DNA from: Thermodesulfobacteriota bacterium
Lineage (GTDB): Bacteria > Desulfobacterota > Deferrisomatia > Deferrisomatales > JACRMM01
Assembly (NCBI GenBank): GCA_040756475.1
Contig: JBFLZB010000004.1
Span: 33,643-69,259, forward strand
Direction: 5' to 3'
DNA: 35,617 nt
The first letter of the stretch is position 1. The number at the start of each line of letters is the position of its first letter. Below, one piece after another: positions 5,605 through 34,913 of the stretch. The notes beneath the pieces were generated by a model, which worked only from the letters and a program-made list of their open reading frames with translations, did no database searches and was not told the DNA's origin. Position numbers and translations under genes: made by a program.

Positions 5605-6517
5605 GGAGATCGAGCCGGGCTCTCCCTCTTTCCTGGGCCACGGCCTCCACAGGAAGCTTTCCCCGGCCGCTCGGCAGGTCGACGACATAGGGGGGAGGCG
5701 CCCCACGGCCTGCTTCCCGCACGATCCCCCTTCCTCGCTCCATGGACACCCGAAACGACCGATTCCCCGGGGCGCGATCCGGGTGGTGGAGGTAGCGGGG
5801 CCGGATGCCGGCCGCGCGCAGGCCTTCCCACAGGGCGGCCAGGGTGGCGGGGTCGTCGTTGACCCCGGCCAGAAGGACCGACTGGGCTTCCACGGCGATG
5901 CCCGCCGCCCGGAGGCAGCCCACCGCGGCCAGGAGGGGCTCCCAGAGCTCGGCGGGGTGGTCCAGGTGGAGGACGACCGTGAGGGGCAGGGGTACCGCCG
6001 CCAGGCAGGCCGCCAGCCGGGACGTAACGCGCCGGGGAAGCACCACCGGGGCCCGCGTGTGGATACGCCAGCGGCGAATGGAGGGGATCGCCGCGAGGCC
6101 ACGGCCGATCTCGGCGAGCTTGCGGTCCGGCAGGGTGAGGGGGTCGCCCCCGGAGAGGACGACCTCCTCCACCTCCGGGCGCTTGGCGAGCCAGGCGAAG
6201 ATGCGGGCCCACTCCTCGGGCCCCGGACGGCCGCGGCTCCCGGGGGGCTCTCCCCGGCGGAAGCAGAAGCGGCAGTAAAAGAAACACCGGGCGGCCGCCA
6301 GCACGAGCACCCGGTCCGGGTACTTTTGGAGCAGAAAGGGCAACGGCGCACACCCCGCCTCGCCCACGGGGTCGGCCAGGGCGTCGGGGTCGGGCTCGCC
6401 CTCCGAAGGGTGGAAGTCCCCCATCCGGAGCAGCGGGCTGTTCGGCCCCAGGGACTCGGCCAAGGCCCGGTAGGCCCGGGGCCAGCGGACGGGGAGGGGG
6501 CTGGGGGAGGCAGGCAA
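5549..6517 (-). CDS. epmB: EpmB/KamA-family radical SAM aminomutase (EF-P beta-lysine synthesis)
   Basis: The family converts (S)-alpha-lysine to (R)-beta-lysine with a 4Fe-4S cluster, SAM and PLP; beta-lysine is then attached to EF-P by EpmA. The cluster motif CFFYCRFC (Cys78, Cys82, Cys85) is followed by FRRGE. SGGDPLTLPD and RIHTRAPVVLP match the SAM- and substrate-binding core. Lys287 in SGRGKLPV is at the PLP-lysine position. The start is uncertain: homology runs back to VRWPRAY, but the only in-frame initiators there are a TTG at 6517 (322 residues, used here) or an internal ATG at 6424. Relative to E. coli EpmB the N-terminus is about 50 residues short. The gene is divergent from efp and epmA, which strongly supports EpmB over catabolic lysine 2,3-aminomutase. 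Confidence 0.82.
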   Translation of the reverse strand: MPASPSPLPVRWPRAYRALAESLGPNSPLLRMGDFHPSEGEPDPDALADPVGEAGCAPLPFLLQKYPDRVLVLAAARCFFYCRFCFRRGEPPGSRGRPGPEEWARIFAWLAKRPEVEEVVLSGGDPLTLPDRKLAEIGRGLAAIPSIRRWRIHTRAPVVLPRRVTSRLAACLAAVPLPLTVVLHLDHPAELWEPLLAAVGCLRAAGIAVEAQSVLLAGVNDDPATLAALWEGLRAAGIRPRYLHHPDRAPGNRSFRVSMERGRGIVREAGRGAPPPYVVDLPSGRGKLPVEAVAQERGRARLDLPTAWRPDRGPEERPPDTA

Positions 6518-6746
6518 AGGGCTAGAGCCCGAAGTTGTAGAGGACGGACTTGCGCACCACGGGCGATTCCTCGGATCGCCTTTCCGAGCCCCGTTCGGTG
6601 AGCTACCGGGTGGGGAGGAAGTCGAGCAACCGAAGGATGCGGGATGCGCGGAACGCCCTGTGGCGGTCGGGATTCCCCTCGTGCACACCTCCCAGGGAGC
6701 CGAGGGGGCGGGGGGGCGGGAAGCGGATTGGGACATGCGCTTCATT

Positions 6747-6775
6747 TTGACAGAAGGCCCAAAAAAGTCTATTCC
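6747..6775 (+). promoter_or_regulatory. sigma-70 promoter of efp
   Basis: A consensus TTGACA (6747-6752) is followed after 17 bp by TATTCC (6770-6775). The transcript would start near 6782, giving a leader of about 43 bases before the efp ATG. The AT-rich spacer stands out against the GC-rich surroundings. Confidence 0.7.
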
Positions 6776-6824
6776 TATTGCCCTTTCCCAACCCGACAGC
6801 CTGGCGCAGGCAGGAGCGGCAGCG

Positions 6825-7385
6825 ATGTACAAGGCCGGTGATCTGAAGAAGGGGCTCAAGCTGGAGATCGACGGCGAGCCCTACGTGATCGAAGAGTTTG
6901 AGTTCTCCAAACCCGGCAAGGGGCAGGCCCTGTACCGGTGCCGCATGCGCAACATGATCAGCGGCAACCGGTTCGACCGCACCTACCGTTCGGGCGACAG
7001 CTTCAAGCCCGCCGCCCTCGAAGAGCGCAAGATGACCTACCTGTACAACGACGGGCACTTCTACACCTTCATGGACCAGGGCACTTACGAGCAGCACCAG
7101 CTCACCGCCGAGCAGCTCGGGGACGACGTGCACTTCCTGATGGACAACCTCGAGGTGGCGGTGCTCCTCTTTCGCGACCGGCCCATCGGGGTCACCCTGC
7201 CCAACTTCGTCGTCCTCAAGGTCGCCCGCGCCGACCCCGCCGCCCGGGGCGACACCGCCACCAACGTGACCAAGCTCGCGGTCATGGAAAACGGCTACGA
7301 GCTCCAGGTACCGGCCTTTGTCGCGGAGGGGGAGAAGATCCAGATCGACACCCGCACGGGGGCGTACGTGACGCGGGTGAAATAG
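6825..7385 (+). CDS. efp: translation elongation factor P
   Basis: The gene encodes 186 residues from ATG 6825, with AGGAG at 6812-6816. EF-P binds between the ribosomal P and E sites and rescues stalling at polyproline. All three beta-barrel domains are present and the length is normal. The N-terminal domain contains FSKPGKGQALYR; Lys32 in PGKGQ is the residue that EpmA modifies with beta-lysine. The adjacent epmA and divergent epmB genes indicate that this lysine is beta-lysylated. An upstream in-frame extension is open but has no ribosome site and lies before the promoter, so the 6825 start is firm. Confidence 0.97.
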   Translation: MYKAGDLKKGLKLEIDGEPYVIEEFEFSKPGKGQALYRCRMRNMISGNRFDRTYRSGDSFKPAALEERKMTYLYNDGHFYTFMDQGTYEQHQLTAEQLGDDVHFLMDNLEVAVLLFRDRPIGVTLPNFVVLKVARADPAARGDTATNVTKLAVMENGYELQVPAFVAEGEKIQIDTRTGAYVTRVK

Positions 7386-7405
7386 CGGGCCCGGAGAGGG
7401 GCGTA

Positions 7406-7445
7406 ATGGGACCTATGGGACGAATGGGACCTATGGGTGGAAAAG
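7406..7445 (+). repeat. ATGGGACNN tandem repeat, copy 1 (upstream of epmA)
   Basis: Three 9-bp units (ATGGGACCT, ATGGGACGA, ATGGGACCT) are followed by ATGGGTGGAAAAG. The last 22 bases (7424-7445) recur exactly at 8420-8441 on the other side of epmA. A diverged inverted version (CATGGGTCCCACAGGCCCCATG, two short blocks at 7479-7500) overlaps the possible epmA starts. Confidence 0.85.
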
Positions 7446-7497
7446 GCGCCGATGGGGGGCGAGGGTGGTTCTCCTGTCCATGGGTCCCACAGGCCCC

Positions 7498-8379
7498 ATG
7501 AAGGACAGGCCAGAGCGCCCGCTTCGCAACCTCGAGCTTCGCGCCCGAGTCCTCCAGGGGGTTCGGGCCTTCTTCGCCGAGGGGGGGTTCCTCGAGGTCG
7601 AGACCCCCCACCGCATCCCGGCCAACGCGCCCGAGCCCCACATCGACGCCGTGCCTTCGGGGGAGTGGTACCTGCACACAAGTCCCGAGCTCGCCATGAA
7701 GCGGCTCCTGGCGGCGGGGTACCCCCGGATCTTCCAGATATGTCGGTGCTGGCGGGAGGGCGAACGGGGGGAGCGGCACCTGCCCGAGTTCACCATGCTC
7801 GAGTGGTACCGGGCCCACGCCGACTACCGGGCTCTCATGGAGGACTGCGAGGGGCTTCTCGGGTTCCTGGGGTTCGCGGCCGGGGCCAAACCACCCTGGC
7901 CCCGCATCGCCGTGGCCGAGGCGTTCCGACGGTGGGCGGGCACCACCCCGGAGGAAGCGCTGGAGGCCGGTTCCTTCGACGAGCTCGTGGCCTTTCGGGT
8001 GGAGCCCGCCCTGGCTTCTCTCGGCACCCCGGTCTTCCTCGTGGACTACCCGGGGCCGTGCGCGGCCCTGGCCCGAAGAAAGCCCGGTCGGCAGGAGCTG
8101 GCGGAGCGCTTCGAGCTCTATGCCGGGGGGCTGGAGCTCGCCAACGGTTTCTCCGAGCTCACGGACCCGGCGGAGCAGCGGGAGCGGTTCGAGGTCGATC
8201 GGGGCGCGCGGCTCCGTTCGGGCCGCGACCCCTACCCCGTCCCGGAGCCCTTCCTGCGCGACCTCGCCCGCATGCCGCCCTCGGCCGGCATCGCCCTGGG
8301 GGTGGACCGGCTGGTGATGCTGCTCGCCGGCGCCGGGACGATCGACGAGGTGGTGGCGTTTTCGCCGGAGGAGTTGTAG
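7498..8379 (+). CDS. epmA: EF-P--(R)-beta-lysine ligase, class II lysyl-tRNA synthetase paralogue
   Basis: EpmA (PoxA/GenX) activates (R)-beta-lysine with ATP and attaches it to the EF-P lysine. From ATG 7498 the protein has 293 residues. It begins directly at the catalytic core without the anticodon-binding domain, as E. coli EpmA does. Class II motifs are clear: motif 2 around FQICRCWREGERGERHLPEFTMLEWYR (two blocks, FQICRCWREG and LPEFTMLEWYR), the substrate region GLELANGFSELTD, and motif 3 GIALGVDRLVML. The start is ambiguous because the upstream ATGGGAC repeat creates in-frame GTG 7465 and ATG 7480. I chose 7498 because homology begins just after it. It follows efp by 112 bp and probably shares its promoter. 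Confidence 0.93.
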   Translation: MKDRPERPLRNLELRARVLQGVRAFFAEGGFLEVETPHRIPANAPEPHIDAVPSGEWYLHTSPELAMKRLLAAGYPRIFQICRCWREGERGERHLPEFTMLEWYRAHADYRALMEDCEGLLGFLGFAAGAKPPWPRIAVAEAFRRWAGTTPEEALEAGSFDELVAFRVEPALASLGTPVFLVDYPGPCAALARRKPGRQELAERFELYAGGLELANGFSELTDPAEQRERFEVDRGARLRSGRDPYPVPEPFLRDLARMPPSAGIALGVDRLVMLLAGAGTIDEVVAFSPEEL

Positions 8380-8534: not shown

Positions 8535-10430
8535 CTATTTCTTTGCGTACCCCACGCCCTGGAGGGCTTCCTCGATCTCGCCCAGGGTGGCGGGGTCGTC
8601 GATGGTGGAGGGGGCGCGGTACTGCTCGCCGTCGGCGATCTTGCGCATGGTGCCGCGCAGGATCTTGCCCGAGCGGGTCTTGGGCAGCCGTTTGACGATC
8701 ATGGTCTCCTTGTAGCAGGCGATGGCGCCGATCTGGTCGCGGATCATCTGGACGAGCTCCTTCTTGAGCTTGTCCTCGGCGATGTCCGCACCGGCCTTGA
8801 GCACCACGAACCCCACGGGAACCTGCCCCTTCAGGTTGTCGCCGGCGCCGATGACCGCGCACTCGGCCACCGCCGGGTGGGTGGCGAGGATCTCCTCCAT
8901 GCCGCCGGTGGAGAGCCGGTGGCCCGCCACGTTGATCACGTCGTCCACCCGGCCCATGATGTACACGTAGTTCTCGTCGTCCAGGTAGCCGCCGTCGCCC
9001 GTGAAGTAGTAGCCCGGGAATGGGTCGGTGTAGGACTCCTTGAAGCGTTGGTCGGCGTTCCACAGGGTCGGCAGGGTGCCGGGGGGCAGGGGCAGCTTGA
9101 CGACGACGATCCCCTCCTGGTTGGGCCCCTGCACCTGGCCCGAGTCGCTCAGCACCCGCACGTCGTAGCCGGGAACGCCCTTGGTGGGGGAGCCCGGCTT
9201 GATGGGGAACTTCTCGATCCCCATGCAGTTGGCGGCAATGGCCCAGCCGGTCTCGGTCTGCCACCAGTGGTCCACCACGGGCCGCTGGAGGAGATCGGTG
9301 GCCCAGTGATAGGTGTCGGGGTCGGTGCGCTCGCCGGCGAGGAAGAGGTACTTGAAGCGGGCGAGATCGTACTTCTTCAGGTACTCGCCCTTGGGGTCCT
9401 CCTTCTTGATGGCTCGGAAGGCGGTGGGCGCGGTAAAGAGCACCTTGACGCCGTGCTGGCTGATGACCCGCCAGAAGGCCCCGGGATCGGGGGTTCCAAT
9501 CGGCTTGCCCTCGTAGCAGATGGTGGTGCAGCCGTAGATGAGAGGCGCGTACACGATGTACGAGTGGCCCACGACCCAGCCCACGTCCGAGGCGGCCCAG
9601 TACACGTCGCCCGGTTCCACGTCGTAGACATACTTCATGCTCCACGCCAGGGAGACGGCGTGGCCGCCGTTGTCGCGGACGATCCCCTTGGGCAGGCCCG
9701 TGGTGCCCGAGGTGTAGAGGATGTAGAGGGGGTCGGTTGCCTTCACGGTGACGCAGGGCGCGGGCTCGGCCTTGGCCATGAGCTCGTCCCAGTCGAAGTC
9801 GCGCCCGGGGGTAAGCTCGGCCTTTACCTGGGGGCGGGCGAGCATGACGCACTTTTCGGGCTTGTGCTTGGCGAGCTCGATGGCCTTGTCGAGCATGGGC
9901 TTGTAGGCCAGCACCTTGGCGCCCTCGATGCCGCAGGAAGCCGAGACGATGACCTTGGGCTTGGCGTCGTCGATGCGCACGGCGAGCTCGTTGGGGGCGA
10001 ACCCCCCGAAAACCACCGAGTGCACCGCGCCCAGGCGCGCGCACGCCAGCATGGAGACCACCGCCTGGGGTACCATGGGCATGTAGATGATCACGGTGTC
10101 GCCCTTGCCCACCCCGAGCCCCCGGAGCACGCCGGCAAACCGCGCCACCTCGTCCCGGAGCTCGCGATAGGTAAACTTCTGCACCTGGTTGGTGACGGGG
10201 CTGTCGTAGATCAGGGCGACCTGGTCGGCCCGGCCCCCCTCCACGTGCCGGTCCAGGGCGTTGTAGCAGGTGTTGAGCTCGCCCCCGACGAACCAGCGGT
10301 AGAACGGAGGGTTGGAGTCGTCGAGCACCTTGTCCCACTTCCGGGACCAGGCAATCGCCTCCGCGGCCTCTCCCCAGAAGCCGTTGGGATCTTGCAGACT
10401 GCGGCGAAACACCTCGTCGTAGCGTCCCAT
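8535..10430 (-). CDS. prpE: propionate--CoA ligase (PrpE/ACSS3-type, acetyl-CoA synthetase family)
   Basis: The enzyme activates a short-chain acid (propionate, possibly acetate) to its acyl-CoA through an adenylate. The start ATG 10430 follows AGGAGGAGG; the product has 631 residues, normal for the family. Motifs: YTSGTTGLPKGI (P-loop), HWWQTETGW (substrate-pocket and adenylation region), YFTGDGGY, VDDVINVAGHRLSTGGMEE (two blocks), and PKTRSGKILR with Lys589 at the position regulated by acetylation in Acs. PrpE rather than Acs is favoured by RDNGGHAVSLAWSMKY, TCYNALDRH and VSASCGIEGAKVLAYKPMLD. Substrate specificity is still an inference. The gene is monocistronic, with its own promoter, and convergent with epmA. 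Confidence 0.9.
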   Translation of the reverse strand: MGRYDEVFRRSLQDPNGFWGEAAEAIAWSRKWDKVLDDSNPPFYRWFVGGELNTCYNALDRHVEGGRADQVALIYDSPVTNQVQKFTYRELRDEVARFAGVLRGLGVGKGDTVIIYMPMVPQAVVSMLACARLGAVHSVVFGGFAPNELAVRIDDAKPKVIVSASCGIEGAKVLAYKPMLDKAIELAKHKPEKCVMLARPQVKAELTPGRDFDWDELMAKAEPAPCVTVKATDPLYILYTSGTTGLPKGIVRDNGGHAVSLAWSMKYVYDVEPGDVYWAASDVGWVVGHSYIVYAPLIYGCTTICYEGKPIGTPDPGAFWRVISQHGVKVLFTAPTAFRAIKKEDPKGEYLKKYDLARFKYLFLAGERTDPDTYHWATDLLQRPVVDHWWQTETGWAIAANCMGIEKFPIKPGSPTKGVPGYDVRVLSDSGQVQGPNQEGIVVVKLPLPPGTLPTLWNADQRFKESYTDPFPGYYFTGDGGYLDDENYVYIMGRVDDVINVAGHRLSTGGMEEILATHPAVAECAVIGAGDNLKGQVPVGFVVLKAGADIAEDKLKKELVQMIRDQIGAIACYKETMIVKRLPKTRSGKILRGTMRKIADGEQYRAPSTIDDPATLGEIEEALQGVGYAKK

Positions 10431-10488
10431 GCCCTCCTCCTCTCGAGCGCTGTGTTGAGAAACCCGGGCCCAAAACAAACGATGTGTC

Positions 10489-10518
10489 ATGCTAGCGGAA
10501 GGATTTCACCGGTGTCAA
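10489..10518 (-). promoter_or_regulatory. sigma-70 promoter of the prpE-like gene
   Basis: On the minus strand TTGACA (10513-10518) is followed after 18 bp by TAGCAT (10489-10494), placing the start near 10482 and a leader of about 50 bases before ATG 10430. The -35 box overlaps the GTG start of the divergent radical SAM gene. Confidence 0.55.
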
Positions 10519-20794: not shown

Positions 20795-23416
20795 ATGTTT
20801 CGAGCATTGCTCCCGCGCCTGCGCAAACTCCCGATCCGCTACAAGCTCCTACTCACGTACTCGGTGATCTTCGTCGTGCTGGTCACGGCAGGGGGGGCGT
20901 TCTCCTACTCGGTGGTCCGGCGCGCGGTGGAGCACGGCATCGAGAGCGAGCTCCGAAACGCAACCGCCACCCTGCTCCACCTGGTGCGCACCTCGGTCAC
21001 GAGCTCGATTCGCAACTACCTGCGGGCCATTGCCTACCGCAACCTGGAGATCACCGAGCACTTCTACGAGCGGTACCAGGCCGGCGAGCTCACCGAGGAG
21101 GAGGCCCAGGCCCGGGCCGCCGAGGTCATCCTCTCCCAGAAGATCGGGACCACCGGCTACGTGTGCTGCCTCGACAGCCAGGGCCTGGTGCTGGTCCACC
21201 CCAAGACGCCGCTGCTCCAGACCAACCTCTCCGAGTACGGGTTCGTCCAGGAGCTCAAGCAGCGCAGGGAAGGGTACCTGGAGTACGAGTGGCAGAACCC
21301 GGGGGAGGAGGCGCCCCAGCCCAAGGCCATGTACATGGCCCACTTCGCCCCCTGGGACTGGATCATCATCGCGTCTTCCTACCGCAACGAGTTCCTCGAG
21401 CTCGTCAACGTGGACGACTTCAAGGAGAGCGTGCTCTCCCTCACCTTCGGCCAGTCCGGCTACTCCTACGTGGCCGACCGGCAGGGCAACGCGGTGATCC
21501 ACCCGAAGTTCGAGGGCTCCAACATCTACGGACAGCGGGCGGTGCCGAGCGAGTTCTTCTCCGAGATGCTGGAGAGCCGCAGCGGCAAGATCGTCTACGC
21601 CTGGAAGAACCCGGGGGAGGAAGTTCCCCGGAAGAAGCTCGTGCTCTTCAACCACATCCCCGAGTTCGACTGGATCGTGGCCTCCTCGAGCTACCTGGAG
21701 GAGGTCTACGCCCCCTTGATCGAGGTGCGCAACTGGTTCGTCCTGGCGATCCTGGGCGCGCTTGTCCTGGTGCTCCCCGTGACCCTGCGGCTGAGCTCCT
21801 CCATTACGGACCCGCTTCGCAGGCTCATGGGGCGCCTGTCCCAGGAGGCGACCGGGGACCTGGGGCTTCGGGCCGAGCCCGGCTCCGCCGACGAGGTGGA
21901 CCAGCTGGGGCGGTACTTCGACGCCTACCTGGAGCGCCTCCAGGAGTACAGTGCCAGCCTGCGGGCGGAGATCGCCGATCGCAAGCACGCCGAAGAGGCC
22001 CTGCGGGAGTCGGAGGAGCGGTACCGGTCGGTGATGGAGGCGGCCCCCGACCCCATCGCCGTCTACGACATGGAAGGACGGGTGGTCTACTTCAACCCCG
22101 CCTTCACCCGGGTCTTCGGCTGGGAGCTGGAGGGGTGCCTGGGCAAGAGGATGGACCTCTTCGTGCCCGATGACTGCTGGCCCGAGACCCGCCGGGGCAT
22201 CGAGCGGGTGCTGGCGGGCCAGACCATCGCGGGGGTGGAGACCCGCCGCTACACCCGGGGAGGAAAGACGATCCACGTCTCCATCAGCGGCGCCACCTAC
22301 CGGGACCGCCACGGGGCCCTGGCCGGCAGCGTCATGATCCTGCGGGACACCACCGAGCAGGTGGCCGCCCAGCGGGCCCTCAAGCTCTCGGAGGAGATGC
22401 TCTCCAAGGCCTTCAGCTTGAGCCCCAACGCCATCGCCATCGCCACCCTGAAGGACCGGCGCCTGCTCAACGTCAACGACACCTTCCTGCGCATGACGGG
22501 CTACGAGCGCCACGAGGTCCTGGGGAAGTCGCCCCGGGAGCTCCACCTCTTCTTCGGCCTGCGCGAGGGCCAGCGGCTCCTCTCCGACCTGGTGCGCCGC
22601 GGGCGGGTGCGCAGCCGGGAAGTGCCCTTCCGCACCCGGTCGGGGGAGCGCCGCCTGGGCCGCGTCAGCGCCGACCTCATCGAGATTCGGGAGGAGCCCT
22701 GCCTGCTGGCCACTACGGAGGACATCACCGAGTGGCGGCGGCTGGAGCGGGAGGTCATCGAGTCCGGCGATCTGGAGCGGCGCCGGATCGGCCAGGAGCT
22801 CCACGACGACCTGGGCCCGCACCTCATCGGGATCGAGGTCCTGGGCAAGGTGCTCCAGCGCAAGCTCGAGCAGCCCCCGAGGGAGGAGGCCGCCTACGCC
22901 CAGCGGATCCGGGACCTCATCGCCCAGGCGACCCACAAGACCCGCGCCCTGGCCCGGGGGCTGTGCCCGGTCCACCTGGCCGACACGGGGCTCGCCTTTG
23001 CCCTGCAGGAGCTCGCCGAGAACACCCGCAGCATCTACGGGCTCTCGTGCAGCCTGAGCACTCCGGGCGAGGTGCGGGTGGAGGACAACTCGGTGGCCAC
23101 CCAGCTTTTCTACATCGCCCGTGAGGCCGTCCACAACGCGGTCAAGCACTCGGGGGGAAAGAGCGTCGACATCGGTCTGGACGAGCGCGACGGGCGCTTG
23201 CACCTCTTCGTGGCGGACGACGGTGCCGGGATGGGCGAGGGGGCCGGGACCGGAGGGGGAGGGGGGATGGGCATGCGGATCATGGCCTATCGCGCCCGCA
23301 TGATCGGCGCGGCCCTGGAGACGGAGAGCCGTCCCGGGCAGGGGACCCGCGTCTCGGTCTCCCTGCCCCTGGAGGTCTGCCTCCCCGAGGTCCCCCCAGA
23401 GGAGGCCGTGGCATGA
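20795..23416 (+). CDS. membrane sensor histidine kinase: Cache, HAMP, two PAS, HisKA_3, HATPase
   Basis: The product has 873 residues from ATG 20795 (GGGGAAG upstream). Transmembrane segment 1 is at about 17-38. A periplasmic double-Cache region follows (38-300), with two similar halves each containing a GYS/GYV strand, a VIHPK/LVHPK motif and a W(D)WI motif. Transmembrane segment 2 is at about 306-328, then HAMP (about 329-380), a short coiled coil, PAS 1 (about 405-520) and PAS 2 (about 525-640). The HisKA_3 domain carries the phospho-His at 670 (QELHDDLGPH), followed by a HATPase domain with the N-box REAVHNAVKHS and a Gly-rich GMGEGAG...GMGMRIM region. It senses a small periplasmic ligand, possibly a carboxylate or amino acid, and phosphorylates the next gene's product. 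Confidence 0.95.
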   Translation: MFRALLPRLRKLPIRYKLLLTYSVIFVVLVTAGGAFSYSVVRRAVEHGIESELRNATATLLHLVRTSVTSSIRNYLRAIAYRNLEITEHFYERYQAGELTEEEAQARAAEVILSQKIGTTGYVCCLDSQGLVLVHPKTPLLQTNLSEYGFVQELKQRREGYLEYEWQNPGEEAPQPKAMYMAHFAPWDWIIIASSYRNEFLELVNVDDFKESVLSLTFGQSGYSYVADRQGNAVIHPKFEGSNIYGQRAVPSEFFSEMLESRSGKIVYAWKNPGEEVPRKKLVLFNHIPEFDWIVASSSYLEEVYAPLIEVRNWFVLAILGALVLVLPVTLRLSSSITDPLRRLMGRLSQEATGDLGLRAEPGSADEVDQLGRYFDAYLERLQEYSASLRAEIADRKHAEEALRESEERYRSVMEAAPDPIAVYDMEGRVVYFNPAFTRVFGWELEGCLGKRMDLFVPDDCWPETRRGIERVLAGQTIAGVETRRYTRGGKTIHVSISGATYRDRHGALAGSVMILRDTTEQVAAQRALKLSEEMLSKAFSLSPNAIAIATLKDRRLLNVNDTFLRMTGYERHEVLGKSPRELHLFFGLREGQRLLSDLVRRGRVRSREVPFRTRSGERRLGRVSADLIEIREEPCLLATTEDITEWRRLEREVIESGDLERRRIGQELHDDLGPHLIGIEVLGKVLQRKLEQPPREEAAYAQRIRDLIAQATHKTRALARGLCPVHLADTGLAFALQELAENTRSIYGLSCSLSTPGEVRVEDNSVATQLFYIAREAVHNAVKHSGGKSVDIGLDERDGRLHLFVADDGAGMGEGAGTGGGGGMGMRIMAYRARMIGAALETESRPGQGTRVSVSLPLEVCLPEVPPEEAVA

Positions 23417-24075
23417 AGGGGCGCCGCCGGATCTTCGTGGTGGAGGATCATCCCATCTTCCGGCTGGGGCTTCGGGAGCTCCTGGAGGAGGAGAGCGACT
23501 TCATCGTGTGCGGCGAGGCCGACGACATCGGCAGCGCCCTGGAGGAGATTGCGCGCACCAGCCCGGACCTGGTGATCGTGGACCTCTCCCTCAAGGGGCG
23601 CAGCGGCATCGACCTCCTGCGGGACCTGCGGGCCCGGTACCGGGACCTGCCGCTGCTGGTGCTTTCCATGTACGACGAGGCCCTCTACGCCGAGCGGGCG
23701 CTGGCCGCGGGGGCCCGAGGCTACATCATGAAGCAGGAGACCTCCGACTCGATCGTCCACGCCGTGCGACGGGTGCTGGAGGGCAAGGTCTACCTGAGCG
23801 AGCGGGTGGTGGGCGACCTGGTGGGGAAGCTCCTCCATGGTGGAGGGCCCGGGGGCGGGCCTGGGGACCGCAGCCCCCTCGAGCGCCTTACCGATCGGGA
23901 GCTCGAGGTCTTCCGCCTCATCGGCAAGGGGTGCACCACCGGCGACATCGCCGAGCGGCTCCACCTGAGCGCCAAGACCATCGGCACCTACCGGGAGCGG
24001 ATCAAGGAAAAGCTCCGCCTGAAGAACGCCGCGGAGCTGACCCTGCACGCCATCCGGCTCGCCGGCGCGGACTGA
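23413..24075 (+). CDS. NarL/FixJ-family response regulator
   Basis: The product has 220 residues from ATG 23413, overlapping the kinase stop (ATGA). The receiver domain (about 5-122) has the acidic pair in VVEDHP, phospho-Asp57 in VIVDLSL, the switch Ser in VLSMYD, and Lys107. A Gly-rich linker leads to a LuxR-type helix-turn-helix (LTDRELEVFRLIGKGCTTGD then IAERLHLSAKTIGTYRERIK). It is the cognate regulator of the preceding HisKA_3 kinase. Its targets are unknown; the multicopper oxidase 134 bp downstream is one candidate. Confidence 0.96.
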   Translation: MKGRRRIFVVEDHPIFRLGLRELLEEESDFIVCGEADDIGSALEEIARTSPDLVIVDLSLKGRSGIDLLRDLRARYRDLPLLVLSMYDEALYAERALAAGARGYIMKQETSDSIVHAVRRVLEGKVYLSERVVGDLVGKLLHGGGPGGGPGDRSPLERLTDRELEVFRLIGKGCTTGDIAERLHLSAKTIGTYRERIKEKLRLKNAAELTLHAIRLAGAD

Positions 24076-25823: not shown

Positions 25824-26762
25824 TCACGGGGAGAGCAGGACGGCCTTGAGGTGGCGCTCGAAGAACTCCGTCAATCCGGTTCGGTTCAGATGGTCGGTGT
25901 CGAAGTAGAAGCGCGGCTCGTCCATGCTCAGGGAAAAGTCGTGGAAGACGGCCCCGGCTTCCTCCAGGATGCGCCCCACCGCCTCGTCGAACGCCGCCTC
26001 CTCCGGAAGTCGGGCATGGAAGCGGGCCGGCACCGGCATCTTGATCGCCACTAAGTCCATGCCTTCGCGCCCCACGAGGGCGACCAGCGCCGCGAACTCT
26101 TCGAGATAGCGGCGAAAGGCCTTGGGGTCGGGACCCTCCGGGTAGAGATACTCGATGCGCTTGCGGTCGGAGACGGCGGAGGGGCGGTGGGTGCGCTCGA
26201 ACTGCTTCTCTCCTTCCCAGATGTCGGGCTCGAACCGATCCCGATGGTTGAGCTTGGAAAAACCCGTCACGTAGTCGAGCACCGCCAGCGCCGCCACGCC
26301 GTGGCGGCGGCTGTAGTCGAAAAAGTGCCGGGCCAGCGCCGGCTCGAAGGGGGTTCGCCGCAGCAGCGAGGCGTCGGCGAACCGGTCCTCGTTCCAAGTG
26401 CGGGAGTGGAAGGCGAAGGAGTTGAGCACGTACAGGACGTGGTCGGCCCGACGCCCGCGCAGAAAGTGTTCGAGCACGAACCGGGTGTAGAGCGGGCCCG
26501 TGCCCGGCGCGGCGAGGTTGAGGATGCGCAGCCCCGTCTCGGCCTCCATGTGGGCGTTGAAGCCGTCGAAGGCCAGGGGCATGGCGTGGGAAGCGCCCAG
26601 GATCACCCAATCGAAGTGCCGTTCCTCCGCCGTCGCGAGCTTGAAGAAGGGGTTGCTGCGGCCGGTACGATACACGAGCCGTTCGGCGGAGTAGTAGACG
26701 GCTGCGTAGAGCAGCAGCCCGATGCCGATGAAAAGGAGGGCGGCTTTGCCGAGAGGTTTCAT
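25824..26762 (-). CDS. SGNH-hydrolase-like membrane-anchored partner of the MBOAT acyltransferase
   Basis: The product has 312 residues from ATG 26762. One N-terminal transmembrane segment (residues about 8-24) is followed by a periplasmic domain with ILGASHA (Ser58 as possible nucleophile) and, near the C-terminus, FYFDTDHLNRTG (Asp288, His291). This GxSH...DxxH layout is that of DltD/AlgJ/AlgX-like proteins that act with MBOAT permeases to acylate extracellular polymers. The gene starts 30 bp after the MBOAT stop. The polymer modified is unknown. I see no alginate, cellulose or teichoic acid genes nearby. Confidence 0.78.
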   Translation of the reverse strand: MKPLGKAALLFIGIGLLLYAAVYYSAERLVYRTGRSNPFFKLATAEERHFDWVILGASHAMPLAFDGFNAHMEAETGLRILNLAAPGTGPLYTRFVLEHFLRGRRADHVLYVLNSFAFHSRTWNEDRFADASLLRRTPFEPALARHFFDYSRRHGVAALAVLDYVTGFSKLNHRDRFEPDIWEGEKQFERTHRPSAVSDRKRIEYLYPEGPDPKAFRRYLEEFAALVALVGREGMDLVAIKMPVPARFHARLPEEAAFDEAVGRILEEAGAVFHDFSLSMDEPRFYFDTDHLNRTGLTEFFERHLKAVLLSP

Positions 26763-26792: not shown

Positions 26793-28265
26793 TCAAAACT
26801 GCATGTAGAGGAACTCTTTCGCCTGCCAGCGCCCGAGGAGGAGGAGCCCAAAGAGGATCCCGTAGTAGATCCCCCACCGCACTGCGACCGGCGCGGCCGA
26901 GAGCCTCTGGAAGATCGAGCGACGCTCGTCCAGGAGCTCGACTCCCAGCAGGAACGCGATGAGGCCGAAGGCGAGGTAGTGGTCCGTGCTGTACGGGTAG
27001 CGCGTCACGAGGCTCGCGATCCGACCGAGGTTGCCTGCGATCCGCTTCAGGATGAGCAACGCGTCGCCCACGGTGGCGGCGCGGAAGAAGACCCAGGCCA
27101 GGGCAATCAGGTGAAAGGTCAAGAGGATGCGCAGCGCGCGAAGCGCCGCGCTGCCCCGGACCCGCGGCAGGCGCTCCCCGAGCCGTCGCCACGCCGGGGC
27201 CGTGGCGAGCCCGACCCACTGATAGAAGCCGTTCAGTGCTCCCCAGACGAGGAAGGTCCACCCCACCCCGTAGCCCAGGCCCGCGTGCCACAGGCCGCTC
27301 ACGGTGAAGACCGCCATGATGTTCGCGTACCGGCGCCACGGACTTCCCCTGCTCCCGCCGAGGGGGATGTACAGGTAGTCGCGGAACCAGTGGCCCAGCG
27401 AGATGTGCCAGCGCTGTCCCCAGAACTCGGCGGTGCTTCGAGCCAGGTAGGGACGGCGGAAGTTCTCCATCAGCGTCAGACCGAAGAGGAGCGAGACCCC
27501 GATGGCGATGTCCGTGTAGCCCGAGAAGTCGCAGTAGATCTGAAAGGCGAAGAAATAGACGCTGAGGAGCAGCTCCATCGGCGGAGCGTAGGCGGCGATG
27601 GTGAAGGTGCGGTCGACCACCGGCGCCAGGTTGTCGGCGATGACGACCTTCTTGAACAGCCCCCAGCCCATGAGCTGCAAGCCGAGGACGAGCATGGCGG
27701 GATGGGCGCGAAGGCCGGACAGGACCCGGGGCAGGAAGGTCGTGGCCCGCTCGATGGGTCCCGCAAAGATCTTTGGGAAGTAGGCCACGTACAGCGCCAC
27801 GTGACCGGCCTTTCGCCCGGCCGGCAGACGGCCGGCGTACACGTCGACCAGGTAGCTTGCCGCGGCAAAGGCATAGAAGGAGTACCCCGCGGGCGCCGCC
27901 ACCCCGAGCCGGGGCAGGGCGGCTTCGGCCTCGAGGCCCAGAAGGGCGCCCGCGGCGCGTTCGATCTCGCCGGCGATGAAATCCCAGAACTTGAAGCCGA
28001 ACAGCGACCCGAGGACGGCGGCGAGCCCGATCCCCAGGATCCAGCCGCGCCCGGGCCCGCCGGCCGTGCGGTCGAGAGCCCACCCGCAGGCCGCCGCCAC
28101 CAGCGTGACCGCGCCCAGGTAGACGAGGTTGAGAGGCTGCCAGATGCCATAGAACACGCAGCTTGTCAGGAGCAGCCAGAGCCACCGATGGCCCGGCCGC
28201 ACCCCCGCGAATACCAGGAGCGTGAGCGGCAGAAAGAGGAAGAACTCGAACGAGGTGAACAACAT
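26793..28265 (-). CDS. MBOAT-family membrane O-acyltransferase (AlgI/DltB-like)
   Basis: The start is ATG 28265 (AGGGG upstream), giving 490 residues. It is a polytopic membrane protein with about eleven hydrophobic segments. Family landmarks are the opening LFTSFEFFLFLPLTLLVF, YFPKIFAGPI, CDFSGYTDIAIG, FWGQRWHISLGHWFRDYLYI and the catalytic His327 in SGLWHAG. It moves acyl groups, usually acetyl, across the membrane to an extracellular polysaccharide, with the following SGNH protein as partner. It lies 144 bp after the second cytochrome gene on the same strand; co-transcription is possible but not shown. Confidence 0.93.
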   Translation of the reverse strand: MLFTSFEFFLFLPLTLLVFAGVRPGHRWLWLLLTSCVFYGIWQPLNLVYLGAVTLVAAACGWALDRTAGGPGRGWILGIGLAAVLGSLFGFKFWDFIAGEIERAAGALLGLEAEAALPRLGVAAPAGYSFYAFAAASYLVDVYAGRLPAGRKAGHVALYVAYFPKIFAGPIERATTFLPRVLSGLRAHPAMLVLGLQLMGWGLFKKVVIADNLAPVVDRTFTIAAYAPPMELLLSVYFFAFQIYCDFSGYTDIAIGVSLLFGLTLMENFRRPYLARSTAEFWGQRWHISLGHWFRDYLYIPLGGSRGSPWRRYANIMAVFTVSGLWHAGLGYGVGWTFLVWGALNGFYQWVGLATAPAWRRLGERLPRVRGSAALRALRILLTFHLIALAWVFFRAATVGDALLILKRIAGNLGRIASLVTRYPYSTDHYLAFGLIAFLLGVELLDERRSIFQRLSAAPVAVRWGIYYGILFGLLLLGRWQAKEFLYMQF

Positions 28266-28402: not shown

Positions 28403-28427
28403 GGGGGGGCTAGTACGATGCCCCCCC
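28403..28427 (-). other. G7/C7 hairpin across the cytochrome stop codon
   Basis: Seven C (28421-28427) and seven G (28403-28409) on the plus strand can pair across an 11-base loop that contains the TAG stop of the cytochrome gene. Right after it on the minus strand is a second short hairpin (GGCCC/GGGCC). No T-tract follows. It may mark the end of the dehydrogenase-cytochrome transcript. Confidence 0.35.
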
Positions 28428-29012
28428 GGCCCGCAGGTCCTCGGGGATCCGATCGATCGGGATCCCGGCGTTCAAGACGAGATACCGGGCCAGCGCCTCC
28501 CGCTCCCGGGGTGTGAGTTTGATCTCGATGTGGCTTGGCTTGTTCATGGTGCCGAGCCAGTGCTCCACGGTGCGGTCCTGGGTGACCGTAACGGTGATGA
28601 TGTGGCACGACTGGCAGAACTCGAGCGCCATGTCCCGCCCGTCCCGCGGCAGGATCTGCGCCCAGTTGGCCGCGGCAGGGTCCGCGGGCACCTGGTCCGC
28701 GGCCAGCGGCATGCTTACCGCCAGGTAGTCTGCAAGAGTCAGGAGCTCTTCCTCCGCGAGACCCCGCAGCCCGGCCAGGGAGGTCTTACGTTCCTTCAGG
28801 TACTGCACCCACTCCTGGGTGGACCGCGTTTCGGTGAGGAGGGCCCGCGCCTCGCCTGCCGGCGGCTTGCCCTCGAGAACGTCGGTGAGCAGCGAGCGGC
28901 CCCCGAGGGGGATGAAATCGAAGATCGGATCGAACTCTGCCTGCACCGGTGCGGCCAGGGCCGCCCCGAGGAGCGCGAGGACGGCAACCGCGTTGCGTCG
29001 CGCGATGCGCAT
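28410..29012 (-). CDS. secreted mono-haem cytochrome c, paralogue 2
   Basis: The product has 200 residues from ATG 29012, preceded by GGAAGGA. A Sec signal peptide covers residues 1-25 (cleavage after PVQA). One haem site, CQSCH, is at 133-137, with Met residues at 156 and upstream as possible axial ligands. Residues 35-130 form a helical domain without haem that is shared with the next gene upstream: GGRSLLTDVLE, EWVQYLKER, LADYLAVSMP, LPRDGRDMALEFCQSCH, LTQDRT-like, and KLTPREREALARYLVLNAGIP. It is about 40% similar by eye to its neighbour and clearly arose by tandem duplication. It probably receives electrons in the periplasm, perhaps from the E1 proteins encoded upstream. Confidence 0.88.
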   Translation of the reverse strand: MRIARRNAVAVLALLGAALAAPVQAEFDPIFDFIPLGGRSLLTDVLEGKPPAGEARALLTETRSTQEWVQYLKERKTSLAGLRGLAEEELLTLADYLAVSMPLAADQVPADPAAANWAQILPRDGRDMALEFCQSCHIITVTVTQDRTVEHWLGTMNKPSHIEIKLTPREREALARYLVLNAGIPIDRIPEDLRAGGASY

Positions 29013-29077: not shown

Positions 29078-29656
29078 TCAGAAGCGCAGGTCGGGCGGCA
29101 CGTCTTCGATCTTCATGGGCATGTTGATGGCCGAGTAGCGCGAGAACTCTTCCCGTTCCTGCGGGGTCATCTTCATCTCGCGGTGGAAGGGGGACTCGAA
29201 CATGTTCATCCAGGCCTGCAGGCTGCGATCCTGCGTGAGATGGCTCGTGAACAGGGAGTGGCAGAACTGGCACTCGTGCCAGGCCAGCTCCCGGCCGTCC
29301 CGCGGAAGGGCTGCATAGAGCTCCGCCGTTCGTCCCTCCCGCTGTGCCACTTCCCCGGGGTTCGACACGGGCATGTTCACCGCCAGATAGGCCGCGAGGG
29401 TGCTCTGCTCCCGTTCGCTCAGCGCCGCGGCGCGGGGGGCGAGGACCTGGCGCCACTCCCCTTCGCTGCGGCGGGCGGAGAGGAGGGCCAGGAGCTCCCC
29501 CCCGTTGCCCGCTTCGGCCAGGACCTGGAGCAGCAGGGTCTTGCCCCCCTTGGGCATGAAGGAGTCGTCGAGCTGGGGCAGCGCCGGCACTGCGCCCAGG
29601 AGCAGGGCGCCGGCGGCGGCCGGAACCAGCCACCTTCGGTGTCGTGGGCACGTCAT
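29078..29656 (-). CDS. secreted mono-haem cytochrome c, paralogue 1
   Basis: The product has 192 residues from ATG 29656 (GGAGGA at good spacing), overlapping the zinc-finger gene's stop as ATGA. The signal peptide ends near residue 28. The haem site CQFCH is at 129-133; Met150, Met152 and several later Met are candidate sixth ligands. The N-terminal half (GGKTLLLQVLAEAG, EWRQVLAPR, LAAYLAVNMP) has the same layout as paralogue 2. The C-terminal part, from LPRDGRELAWHECQFCH to MTPQEREEFSRYSAINMP, is the most conserved between the two. I do not recognise a named cytochrome family. Its coupling to the E1 operon suggests a dedicated electron acceptor. Confidence 0.88.
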   Translation of the reverse strand: MTCPRHRRWLVPAAAGALLLGAVPALPQLDDSFMPKGGKTLLLQVLAEAGNGGELLALLSARRSEGEWRQVLAPRAAALSEREQSTLAAYLAVNMPVSNPGEVAQREGRTAELYAALPRDGRELAWHECQFCHSLFTSHLTQDRSLQAWMNMFESPFHREMKMTPQEREEFSRYSAINMPMKIEDVPPDLRF

Positions 29657-29970
29657 GGTTCCTCCCGGCGCACGGTCCGGTCGCGCAGGGAGAAGACCGG
29701 TACGCGCAGCTCTCGCAGTGCGCTCTCCGATGGAAAGCCGTCGCCCCGGAGCAGGTCGAGCAGCACCACCGTGTGGTCGTCGTAAAACTGCTCGTGGCAG
29801 GCCCCGCACACGATGGCGGGGATGTCTTCCACGACCACCAACCGGTCGCCGTGCCAGAACGCCGACCGCACGCTCGCGGGGTGTGTGGCGTCGCTGCCGC
29901 AGTTCCCGCACGTCTCGCCCGGCTGCTTCCCAGCCTGGGGATCGATCTCGCCCATGCCCTGCGTTTCCAT
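29653..29970 (-). CDS. YgiT/MqsA-type zinc-finger protein
   Basis: The product has 105 residues from ATG 29970. Two CxxC pairs (CGNC at 21-24 and CGAC at 55-58), with the spacer WHGDRLVVVEDIPAIV, are the YgiT-type zinc-finger pattern found at the N-terminus of MqsA antitoxins. The helix-turn-helix of MqsA is absent; the C-terminus (VVLLDLLRGDGFPSE, RELRVPVFSLRD) is short. There is no mqsR-like toxin next to it. Its stop overlaps the first cytochrome gene, so it is translated together with it. The function is unknown; possibilities are a regulator or a metal/redox accessory of the E1-cytochrome locus. Confidence 0.8.
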   Translation of the reverse strand: METQGMGEIDPQAGKQPGETCGNCGSDATHPASVRSAFWHGDRLVVVEDIPAIVCGACHEQFYDDHTVVLLDLLRGDGFPSESALRELRVPVFSLRDRTVRREEP

Positions 29971-30057: not shown

Positions 30058-31029
30058 TCAGGCAGCCAGCTTCTTCGCCGCGGCGACGATGTGGTCGGCG
30101 TTGGGCCGCATCCACAGGAACATCTCGGGAGACGCCGGAGGCGGCGCGTCGGGAAAGGCGATGCGCTTGAAGCGCGCGCCGTCCACGTTCTCCGCCACCC
30201 GGGCGATCACCTCGGCCGCCGGGCCCAGGGTGTAGTAGGACTGGTCCACGGCCAGGAGCCGCTTGGTCTTCTGCACCGACGTCACGAGGGTCTCGGTGTC
30301 CATGGGCTTGAGGGAGCGCAGGTCGATGGTCTCCACCTTCATGCCCTGCTTCTGCAACTGCTCGGTCGCCTTGAGCACCTCGGGCATGCCGCCGCCCGAG
30401 CCCACGATGGTGATGTCGCTCCCCTCGGACCGTATGGCGGCCTTGTCCAGGGGCGTGGTGTACGGGTCATCGGGCACGTCTTCGATCATGTCCCGCAGGC
30501 CGGCCGCATACAGGAAGGCGACCGGGTTCGGATCGCGTAGCGCCGACACCATCATGCCCTTGGCATCGGTGGGGTTCGACGGGATGACCGTCTTCAGGCC
30601 GGGGATGTGCGCGTAGTAGGTGTCGATCTCGTAGTCGGAGTGCTGGCCGGCGAAGCCCGGGGTCTGCCCGGTCATCTCGAGCACGAAGACCACCGGCATC
30701 TGTGCCTGCCCACCCGTCATGTGGTGCAGCTTGCCCGCGTGATTCTGCAGGATCTGGAAGCACATGGCGTTGCCCTGGTAGGGGATGTAGGTGGCGGCCC
30801 GGGAACCGGCCAGGCCCGCGCCCAGAACGCAGGCTGCCATCCACATCTCGTCGATGCCGGTATTGACCACCCGCTTGCGGCCGAACTCCCTCTCCAGGTT
30901 GATGACCGGCTTCCCCGGGGTCGACGCCACCGGCGGCGTCAACTCGAAGATCCAGATCATGTTGGGGTCCTTTTGCATTTCGTACTGCACGGCCTCGAGG
31001 ACCGAGTACATGAAGCTCTTGCGTGCCAT
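30058..31029 (-). CDS. TPP-dependent 2-oxoacid/acetoin dehydrogenase E1 component, beta subunit
   Basis: The product has 323 residues from ATG 31029, with GGGAGGG upstream; the in-frame ATG at 31044 overlaps that site. It has the transketolase-like pyrimidine-binding and C-terminal domains of E1 beta: VVNTGIDEMWMAACVLGAGLAG with Glu61 at the cofactor-activating position, GGQAQMPVVFVLEM, GQHSDYEID, IPGLKTVIPSNPTDAKGMM (two blocks), DITIVGSGGG and VETIDLRSLKPMD. There is no signal peptide at all, although its alpha partner has a Tat signal. Export as a folded alpha-beta complex (Tat hitchhiking) is the simplest reading. The region after GQ is less like pyruvate dehydrogenase than usual, so the substrate (pyruvate, acetoin or another) is open. 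Confidence 0.9.
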   Translation of the reverse strand: MARKSFMYSVLEAVQYEMQKDPNMIWIFELTPPVASTPGKPVINLEREFGRKRVVNTGIDEMWMAACVLGAGLAGSRAATYIPYQGNAMCFQILQNHAGKLHHMTGGQAQMPVVFVLEMTGQTPGFAGQHSDYEIDTYYAHIPGLKTVIPSNPTDAKGMMVSALRDPNPVAFLYAAGLRDMIEDVPDDPYTTPLDKAAIRSEGSDITIVGSGGGMPEVLKATEQLQKQGMKVETIDLRSLKPMDTETLVTSVQKTKRLLAVDQSYYTLGPAAEVIARVAENVDGARFKRIAFPDAPPPASPEMFLWMRPNADHIVAAAKKLAA

Positions 31030-31095
31030 GGTCGCCCTCCCCATTGCTTGCCAAGTGTGAGGTGGTTGCGCCTGTTCCCCTCTGCGCAGTCCGGC

Positions 31096-32325
31096 TCAGC
31101 CGAACTGCCGGGGAAGAACGGTGCCCTCGACGAAGACGTGCTTGAGCCCGTCTTCCGGCTTGCCGAGGGGCTGTTTGTCGGCCCAGGCAAAGGCCTCGAC
31201 CATCTCCGCCCTGGCGGCAGTCTCGATCTCGTCGGCCTTGGCTCGATCCAGAACTCCCCAATGGATGAGGGTGTTGCGAGAGATGTCGACCGGGTCGCGG
31301 GCCATCCAGGCGCGCACCTCGCGCTCCGGCCGGAAGGAGGTGATGGCCAGGGGGTCGTAGCCGAAGGCGCCCAACTCGCCCGGTTTGGCGCCGGGTGCGC
31401 CCCAGTGGTTGTAGTAGCGGTAGGTCTTGGCCTCGATGAGGGTCGGCCCCTCGCCGGCGCGCGCGCGCTCCACCGCCTGCTTCGCCGCGTTGTACACCTG
31501 GATCACGTCCTGGCCGTCCACGACCACCCCTGGGATCCCGTAGGTCTTGGCAGCGATGGCGATGTCCTTCATCGGGCAGGAGTAGGAGTAGTGTGCATAC
31601 TGGTGGTACAGGTTGTTCTCCAGGACGTAGATGAAGGGCAGGTTGAGGAGCGCCGCGTTGTTGAGCGCGCTGTGGAAGTGGGGGGTGGCGTAGGTGCCGT
31701 CGCCGCCGTAGTTCACGACGACCTGCTTGCTGCCCCGGGCGCGGATGGCGAAGGCGGACCCGGTGGCAATGACGTAGCCGGGGCCGATCATGCCGTCGGC
31801 TCCCATGAAGCCCACCGACTTGTCGGCGATGTGCATCTCCCCCGCGTACCCCTTGTTTAGCCCCGTGGCCCGGAACTCGTACTCCGCGGCCATCTTCTTT
31901 ACTTCCACGCCCTTGGCGATCGCGTGGCCGGAGGGGCGGTGGGTGCTGTAGACGAGGTCCGCCTCCATCACCCCGCCCGTGTTCTTCAGGGCGGCGGAAA
32001 CCCCCGTGGCCACCGCCTCCTGTCCGACGTAGAAGTGGTTGTAGCCGCGATAGCCGGGCTCGGTGAGCATCTTGTCCACGCAGGTGCGCTCGAACCAGCG
32101 GATGCGCTGGATCGTCGTGTACAGGTGGATCAGTTGCTCGTTGGTGAGATCCTTGGCCCAGAAACCGATCTCGCCGTTGGCCCAGGCGACCTTGCTGCCC
32201 AGCGAGATCGCCGCGCCGGCACCCGCCAGGGCCGCCAGAAAGCCGCGGCGGCTCGTCGGCAGTGTCCAGCCTCGGCCTTCTTCGCGGTCCTGCGTCTCCG
32301 ATGGAGTCTTCGATTGCATTGTCAT
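31096..32325 (-). CDS. Tat-exported TPP-dependent dehydrogenase E1 component, alpha subunit
   Basis: The start is ATG 32325, directly after GGAGGAAGG (a second ATG two codons later is equivalent), giving 409 residues. Residues 1-49 are a textbook twin-arginine signal: a polar n-region, TSRRGFLAALAG (Arg26, Arg27), a hydrophobic core and the cleavage motif AWA before Asn50. The mature part is a complete E1 alpha: NHFYVGQEAVATGV, STHRPSGHAIAKG, GYAGEMHIAD, and the TPP motif GDG (208-210) to ENN (236-238), then YGIPGVVVDGQDV and PTLIEAKTYRYYNHWGAP. E1 alpha subunits of pyruvate, branched-chain and acetoin dehydrogenases are normally cytoplasmic and hand the acyl group to lipoyl-E2. Here no E2 or E3 gene follows; cytochromes c do. 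It is probably a periplasmic oxidoreductase. Confidence 0.92.
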   Translation of the reverse strand: MTMQSKTPSETQDREEGRGWTLPTSRRGFLAALAGAGAAISLGSKVAWANGEIGFWAKDLTNEQLIHLYTTIQRIRWFERTCVDKMLTEPGYRGYNHFYVGQEAVATGVSAALKNTGGVMEADLVYSTHRPSGHAIAKGVEVKKMAAEYEFRATGLNKGYAGEMHIADKSVGFMGADGMIGPGYVIATGSAFAIRARGSKQVVVNYGGDGTYATPHFHSALNNAALLNLPFIYVLENNLYHQYAHYSYSCPMKDIAIAAKTYGIPGVVVDGQDVIQVYNAAKQAVERARAGEGPTLIEAKTYRYYNHWGAPGAKPGELGAFGYDPLAITSFRPEREVRAWMARDPVDISRNTLIHWGVLDRAKADEIETAARAEMVEAFAWADKQPLGKPEDGLKHVFVEGTVLPRQFG

Positions 32326-33016: not shown

Positions 33017-34843
<1,827 letters not shown>

Positions 34844-34913
34844 CGACCCATCCTTTCTCCGAAGACCTCCGCCAAAACCCCAGGGTTTCCCGGCAGGTTC
34901 CTCGGCTACCATG

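Follow-up and report, generated by a model that had tools for sequence, protein, structure and literature searches.

E1-type ThDP dehydrogenases are, to our knowledge, cytoplasmic (or organellar) enzymes that are bound to E2. PoxB belongs to another ThDP family; it is cytoplasmic, depends on FAD and reduces quinone. HybOC and PaoABC provide precedents for hitchhiking through the twin-arginine (Tat) pathway (PMC4273604). Pairs of an MBOAT and an SGNH protein usually acylate envelope polymers from cytoplasmic acyl-CoA, and in PatA acetyl reaches the SGNH partner on the Tyr of the FxYxxF motif (PMC12148441).

The locus described here joins an E1, two cytochromes c and an MBOAT–SGNH pair in one operon (Table 1). 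It lies in a stretch of 35,617 nucleotides that was analysed as a whole and is called the window below. We read the locus as a mobile seven-gene operon for a periplasmic ThDP oxidoreductase with its own cytochromes c and a coupled acyl shuttle. We hold this reading to be moderately probable; export, electron path and coupling are inferred.

Table 1. Features of the operon in the window
Feature	Position	Strand	Details
E1-alpha, ThDP-binding dehydrogenase, predicted to be Tat-exported	31096..32325	-	409 aa; RR = residues 26-27; PF00676, TIGR01409; orthologues in 55 loci
N-terminal extension and twin-arginine leader of E1-alpha	32179..32325	-	to about residue 49; AWA cleavage region
E1-beta, leaderless	30058..31029 (or ATG 31044)	-	PF02779/PF02780; Glu61 and His130 invariant (numbering from Met 31029)
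YgiT-type zinc-finger protein, no leader	29653..29970	-	CxxC...CxxC; TIGR03831 43.4 bits, cut-off 20.2
Secreted monohaem cytochrome c 1 (cyt1)	29078..29656	-	CQFCH; orthologues in relatives' operons
Secreted monohaem cytochrome c 2 (cyt2)	28410..29012	-	CQSCH; paralogue of cyt1
MBOAT membrane O-acyltransferase	26793..28265	-	PF03062 87.3 bits, cut-off 27; FLYMQF at C-terminus; His330 (numbering from 28274)
Membrane-anchored SGNH acyltransferase-like protein, DltD-like fold	25824..26762	-	Ser58, Asp288 and His291 invariant (alignment A3)

The E1 subunits and the twin-arginine leader

The alpha gene starts at an ATG at 32325, preceded by GGAGGAAGG, and stops at 31096. Its product matched the E1_dh family PF00676 with 181.8 bits (cut-off 22) and begins with the leader TSRRGFLAALAGAGAAISLGSKVAWA, which passed the Tat signal profile TIGR01409 in an NCBIfam profile search (17.6 bits; cut-off 16.7). 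The RR motif was present in all orthologous alphas with a complete N-terminus, down to 66% identity; R26 and R27 were invariant in an alignment of 26 members (A4), 19 of which matched TIGR01409 at E ≤ 0.1. By its leader (TIGR01409 above cut-off, RR in complete orthologues) the subunit qualifies as a Tat substrate. Since the scan patterns had been placed within the mature enzyme and not in the leader, leaderless orthologues would have been picked up as well; none occurred among the complete alphas. A chance or degenerate leader was ruled out, as all complete orthologues keep it. The Tat leader that the earlier note had seen is thus real, and the orthologues without a leader that would have counted against it did not turn up. 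Export of alpha via Tat remains a prediction.

The beta subunit was said to carry no leader, and we found no signal sequence; both of its domains scored far over their cut-offs (PF02779, 57.8 bits against 27; PF02780, 100.5 bits against 25.9). Alpha positions matching human His63a, Asp167a, Asn196a, Tyr198a and His263a were invariant in all 53 alphas; the human numbering was taken from the alignment and from the general numbering of E1. All 26 betas of alignment A5 keep the activating Glu (E61) and also the His (H130), and an alignment to Bacillus E1-beta agrees. The pair meets both the domain criterion and the ThDP/Mg plus catalytic His/Glu criterion of the 2-oxoacid dehydrogenase E1 superfamily. 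Alpha did not reach the NCBIfam PDH equivalog cut-offs (TIGR03182, 231.4 against 393.85; TIGR03181, 180.1 against 411.35), so the name "pyruvate dehydrogenase" should not be used. The Tat-E1-alpha clade has many private residues. YRYYNHW stands where a YHGHS-type sequence is expected, and near the phospho-loop region there is an insertion (GELGAFGYDPLA, near residues 312-328). Our best reading of the alpha–beta pair is a ThDP-dependent 2-oxoacid (or similar) oxidoreductase in the periplasm, its substrate and activity being inferred without biochemical data. One other locus (L002, on G000:C77) has a different E1-alpha that lacks a Tat leader; it is 41% identical to that of the window and stands beside a radical-SAM-like gene, so near the contig end that its partners are out of view.

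Conservation, origin and control of the operon

Scanning the named genomes in the genome collection, we found 55 loci with alpha orthologues of 66-87% identity. The hosts are nearly all Alpha- and Betaproteobacteria (Rhodobacteraceae, Bradyrhizobiaceae, Devosia, Chelativorans, Ramlibacter, Burkholderiales MAGs), and the cultivated environmental ones include Chelativorans xinjiangense, Ramlibacter lithotrophicus and Roseovarius marisflavi. Gene content and order are observed directly: Tat-E1-alpha, E1-beta, a YgiT-type zinc finger, two cytochromes c, an MBOAT and a DltD-like SGNH protein follow one another on every contig long enough, with short intergenic gaps, and the cyt1 start overlaps the zinc-finger stop (ATGA). 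Orthologue content was determined by tblastn. Operon genes missing from a locus reflect contig ends, and one beta (L033) that had been lost in ORF extraction was present by tblastn. The zinc-finger protein retains its four Cys in 53 of 53 sequences; it is possibly a cytoplasmic assembly or export factor, a role that we infer.

Pairwise identities of alpha correlated with those of cyt1 (r = 0.84), cyt2 (0.80), the MBOAT (0.74) and the SGNH protein (0.70). Such correlation is expected from joint inheritance, and shared descent accounts for it in part. That the seven genes form one unit is well supported by comparison across the loci. Tat-E1-alpha was present in 8 of 249 genomes drawn evenly from the family of Roseovarius marisflavi, the centre genome included. 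In a draw of 399 Pseudomonadota the centre genome was the sole carrier, which indicates that the operon is rare and patchy. No plasmid-borne alpha copies were found at ≥ 60% identity. The tabulation of homologues that the earlier note had proposed came out as it would have it, with Tat leaders in all complete alphas, cytochromes c always adjacent and E2/E3 absent. Its reading of an exported E1 with cytochromes is supported; what it overlooked were the zinc finger, the MBOAT–SGNH pair, the anaerobox of the relatives and a horizontal origin.

This origin was apparent from both distribution and phylogeny. None of 98 searched relatives of the window's own genome gave an E1 match at E ≤ 1e-80, and the phylum (395 genomes) held only cytosolic E1s about 40% identical; a native origin of alpha in this lineage was ruled out on these grounds. 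The nearest cytosolic E1s found share at most about 45% identity with Tat-E1-alpha. The Tat clade is monophyletic in the alpha tree, its stem measuring 1.17 substitutions per site. Within it the alpha of the window falls into one group (support 0.94) with the Hyphomicrobiales/Bradyrhizobiaceae MAGs L016, L017 and L019. Nesting among Hyphomicrobiales, together with absence from the 98 relatives, shows that the window copy was acquired horizontally; judged by these comparisons, the operon is mobile. A misbinned contig was excluded by the contig's acyl-CoA synthetase, whose counterparts in relatives from the family and the order are 83-84% identical to it. This synthetase-like gene (8535-10490, minus strand; probably for acetyl- or propionyl-CoA) is native to the lineage. 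Elsewhere in the window, a probable elongation factor P gene is followed by an EpmA/GenX-like lysyl-tRNA-synthetase-like gene (6474-8379, plus strand; recognized by eye).

The anaerobox of the FNR/FnrL regulon has the consensus TTGA-N6-TCAA (PMC11784457). Of 52 loci, 23 have a strict FNR-type box (TTGAY-N4-RTCAA) upstream of alpha, where base shuffles predict 0.02, and anaerobox density at -200 to -100 was 4.4/kb compared with 0.08/kb elsewhere in the same loci. Upstream of the window copy there is no recognisable anaerobox. Low-oxygen control of FNR/FnrL type is thus indicated in many hosts, as a DNA motif only. The flanks hold FnrL/Crp regulators (12 loci), nitroreductase (9), Hsp20 (9), Usp (7), P-type ATPase (7), ATP synthase beta, partly of the alternate type (5), and an acetate-CoA ligase (8 loci; 56-64% identical to each other, one scoring 858 bits with NF003313 at a cut-off of 729). 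They have the appearance of low-oxygen and stress islands. Phosphoribosyltransferase and erythromycin-esterase-like genes also recur around the operon (16 loci; L067, L034, L041, L027 and others) and are fused in L067. In the window, a Cache/PAS/HAMP sensor histidine kinase gene and then a LuxR-type response regulator gene (20795-24075, plus strand) converge on the operon about 1.7 kb past its 3' end; both have a weak, below-cut-off likeness to MctS/MctR and NarX/NarL. The region upstream of the operon (33017-34868, minus strand) encodes a putative lipoprotein, which contains a long repeat of Pro-Glu, (PE)n, and whose C-terminus is rich in Cys.

Electron and acyl acceptors

The two secreted cytochromes c that the earlier note had placed near the E1 are genuine CxxCH proteins. 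They gave only weak class-I matches in Pfam (Cytochrome_CBB3, Dehyd-heme_bind), and the best solved-structure profile match of cyt2, the SorB haem domain, was not significant (E 0.19). The AlphaFold2 model of the cytochrome is all-helical (pLDDT 85) and had no Foldseek match in the PDB at E ≤ 0.001. The pair was observed in exactly the 8 genomes with Tat-E1-alpha among the 249 of the one family; the sole extra match in that set, a weak one (E = 4e-9), was a small SorB-like cytochrome beside a Tat molybdoenzyme. From this exact co-occurrence the cytochrome family looks dedicated to Tat-E1. It also looks distantly like cytochrome subunits that take electrons from Tat-exported oxidoreductases, so far as sequence likeness can tell.

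His330 of the MBOAT is 100% conserved, and nearly all complete copies end in the F[ILV]Y..F (FxYxxF) motif, the exceptions being L032 (AIYMQF) and L056 (unrelated C-terminus). The AlphaFold2 model of the SGNH protein (pLDDT 95.6) had DltD as its top Foldseek match (E = 1.7e-7, probability 1.00), with PatB lower in the list. Domain, His, FxYxxF, Ser-Asp-His and fold all agree with an MBOAT–SGNH pair. A Dlt D-alanylation system is not indicated: the DltB equivalog score was 125.1 against a cut-off of 375, and the conserved operon has no DltA or DltC. No polymer-biosynthesis gene family recurs near the operon across the loci.

In the mechanism that we propose, alpha and beta would fold with ThDP/Mg in the cytoplasm, and the folded complex would cross by Tat with beta hitchhiking on the alpha leader. 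This step is inferred from the leader, its conservation and the precedents HybOC and PaoABC; for beta it rests on analogy. In the periplasm a 2-oxoacid would be decarboxylated, or a related carbonyl compound attacked, to give hydroxyalkyl-ThDP. Two electrons would then be passed singly to the dedicated cytochromes c, from which a terminal oxidase or reductase would receive them. The transfer to the cytochromes is inferred from their strict co-occurrence and from the lack of another acceptor. Comparison gives export and acceptor good support; the substrate, the fate of the acyl group and the direction of the shuttle rest on inference. As there is no lipoyl-E2 to take the acyl group on ThDP, the SGNH Ser/MBOAT Tyr shuttle is a candidate acyl handler in its place, and the operon would then link oxidation in the periplasm with the transfer of acyl groups at the membrane.

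No E2 or E3 recurred in the operon of any of the loci, and a linked lipoyl E2 and E3, which would mark membership of a complex, are missing from the conserved operon. Three E2 genes were identified in the genome from which the window comes: one on contig C18 adjoins another E1-alpha/beta pair, one on C9 sits between the end of a 2-oxoglutarate-dehydrogenase-like E1 and an E3, and one at the start of C213 fits, by inference, an E1-alpha/beta pair near the end of C297. No orphan E2 that could serve Tat-E1 was found in this genome. The genomes do encode E2/E3, and one could suppose that the leader is unused and that alpha–beta is a cytoplasmic E1 served by them. We consider this highly improbable, given that all complete orthologues keep the leader, that each own-genome E2 either has another E1 beside it or stands at a contig break compatible with one, and that the PDH equivalog cut-offs are missed. 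E2/E3 genes elsewhere that clearly use this E1, which would have overturned the earlier proposal, are not in evidence, and neither is any sign that the leader goes unrecognised.

The only acyl acceptors that the conserved genes offer are water (giving a free acid, then acetate-CoA ligase) and the SGNH/MBOAT shuttle, and we cannot decide between the two. If the shuttle is the acceptor, the system would amount to a 2-oxoacid dehydrogenase divided between the two sides of the inner membrane, with a periplasmic E1 and cytochromes c, in which the SGNH-Ser/MBOAT-Tyr shuttle, running inward to CoA or onto an envelope acceptor, replaces lipoyl-E2; we put this forward only tentatively and with considerable doubt. 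The inward route taken by itself, from acyl-ThDP outside via SGNH Ser and MBOAT Tyr to cytoplasmic CoA, would send electrons to cytochrome c and make acyl-CoA inside. It would agree with the absence of E2, the retention of all acyl-shuttle residues and the need of the reaction for some acyl acceptor, but we think it unlikely: the known MBOAT–SGNH pairs work in the outward direction, an ester of serine donates poorly to CoA, and there is neither precedent nor interaction evidence. The MBOAT–SGNH pair may instead be tied to E1 by physiology and not by chemistry, since the usual work of such pairs is to modify envelope polymers with acyl groups from cytoplasmic acyl-CoA. A narrower reading with the same export and electron path and no chemical coupling is quite possible, though we lean against it: a periplasmic oxidase would release free acid (acetate from pyruvate, PoxB-like), and independently of it the pair would O-acylate an envelope polymer, with cytoplasmic acyl-CoA as the source, both activities belonging to one low-oxygen response. 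Known MBOAT–SGNH pairs do work in this way (PMC12148441), the flanks contain low-oxygen and stress genes, and an acetate-CoA ligase beside 8 loci is as expected if acetate is made. However, MBOAT and SGNH genes in the same order in every locus long enough exceed what a loose physiological link would require, and no recurrent polymer-synthesis gene family is nearby. Finally, the exported E1 could be a lyase, carboligase or acyl donor that builds or modifies an envelope compound by non-oxidative ThDP chemistry, with the cytochromes serving a side reaction. E1-like proteins without E2 are known in other settings, and the clade-unique insertion near the phospho-loop region and the many private residues would suit such a function; two strictly co-occurring cytochromes that are always in the operon make it improbable.

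Comparison with described systems

Every protein of the operon belongs to a known superfamily; their combination, compartment and partners match no system that we know or found. The open-access PMC literature contained no description of a Tat-exported E1, of periplasmic ThDP pyruvate oxidation or of an E1/MBOAT operon (subscription papers and preprints were outside its scope), and within that literature the statement of the earlier note that no such system had been described still stands. If our reading is correct, the operon would let electrons enter respiration by a new route at the level of cytochrome c, and it might also offer acyl groups a new way across a membrane.

PatAB, AlgIJ and DltBD (PMC12148441) share with the window pair the MBOAT His, the C-terminal FxYxxF and the DltD/PatB-like SGNH fold, whereas the window pair is in one operon with an exported dehydrogenase and cytochromes and has no recurrent polymer genes. 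PaoABC, the periplasmic aldehyde oxidoreductase of E. coli, is likewise a multi-subunit redox enzyme with one Tat leader and leaderless hitchhikers (PMC4273604), but it is a molybdenum/FeS/FAD enzyme, not a ThDP enzyme, and has no MBOAT–SGNH pair. The sulfite:cytochrome c oxidoreductase SorAB also combines a catalytic subunit that Tat exports with a cytochrome c as its partner. SorAB is a molybdenum enzyme with an unrelated catalytic subunit, however, and the conserved operon has no gene for a molybdenum SorA. PoxB with acetate-CoA ligase resembles the proposed system in that ThDP-dependent pyruvate decarboxylation feeds the respiratory chain without E2, and the ligase is near 8 loci. The alpha2-beta2 E1 of PDH and branched-chain 2-oxoacid dehydrogenase shares both subunits, the ThDP/Mg motif and the catalytic His and Glu. 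In contrast to complex-bound E1, the system in the window has a Tat leader, dedicated cytochromes c, a clade insertion and no linked E2/E3. We rate it as new because it departs from the known E1 systems in its compartment, in its electron acceptor and in its acyl partner, all three of which are inferred.
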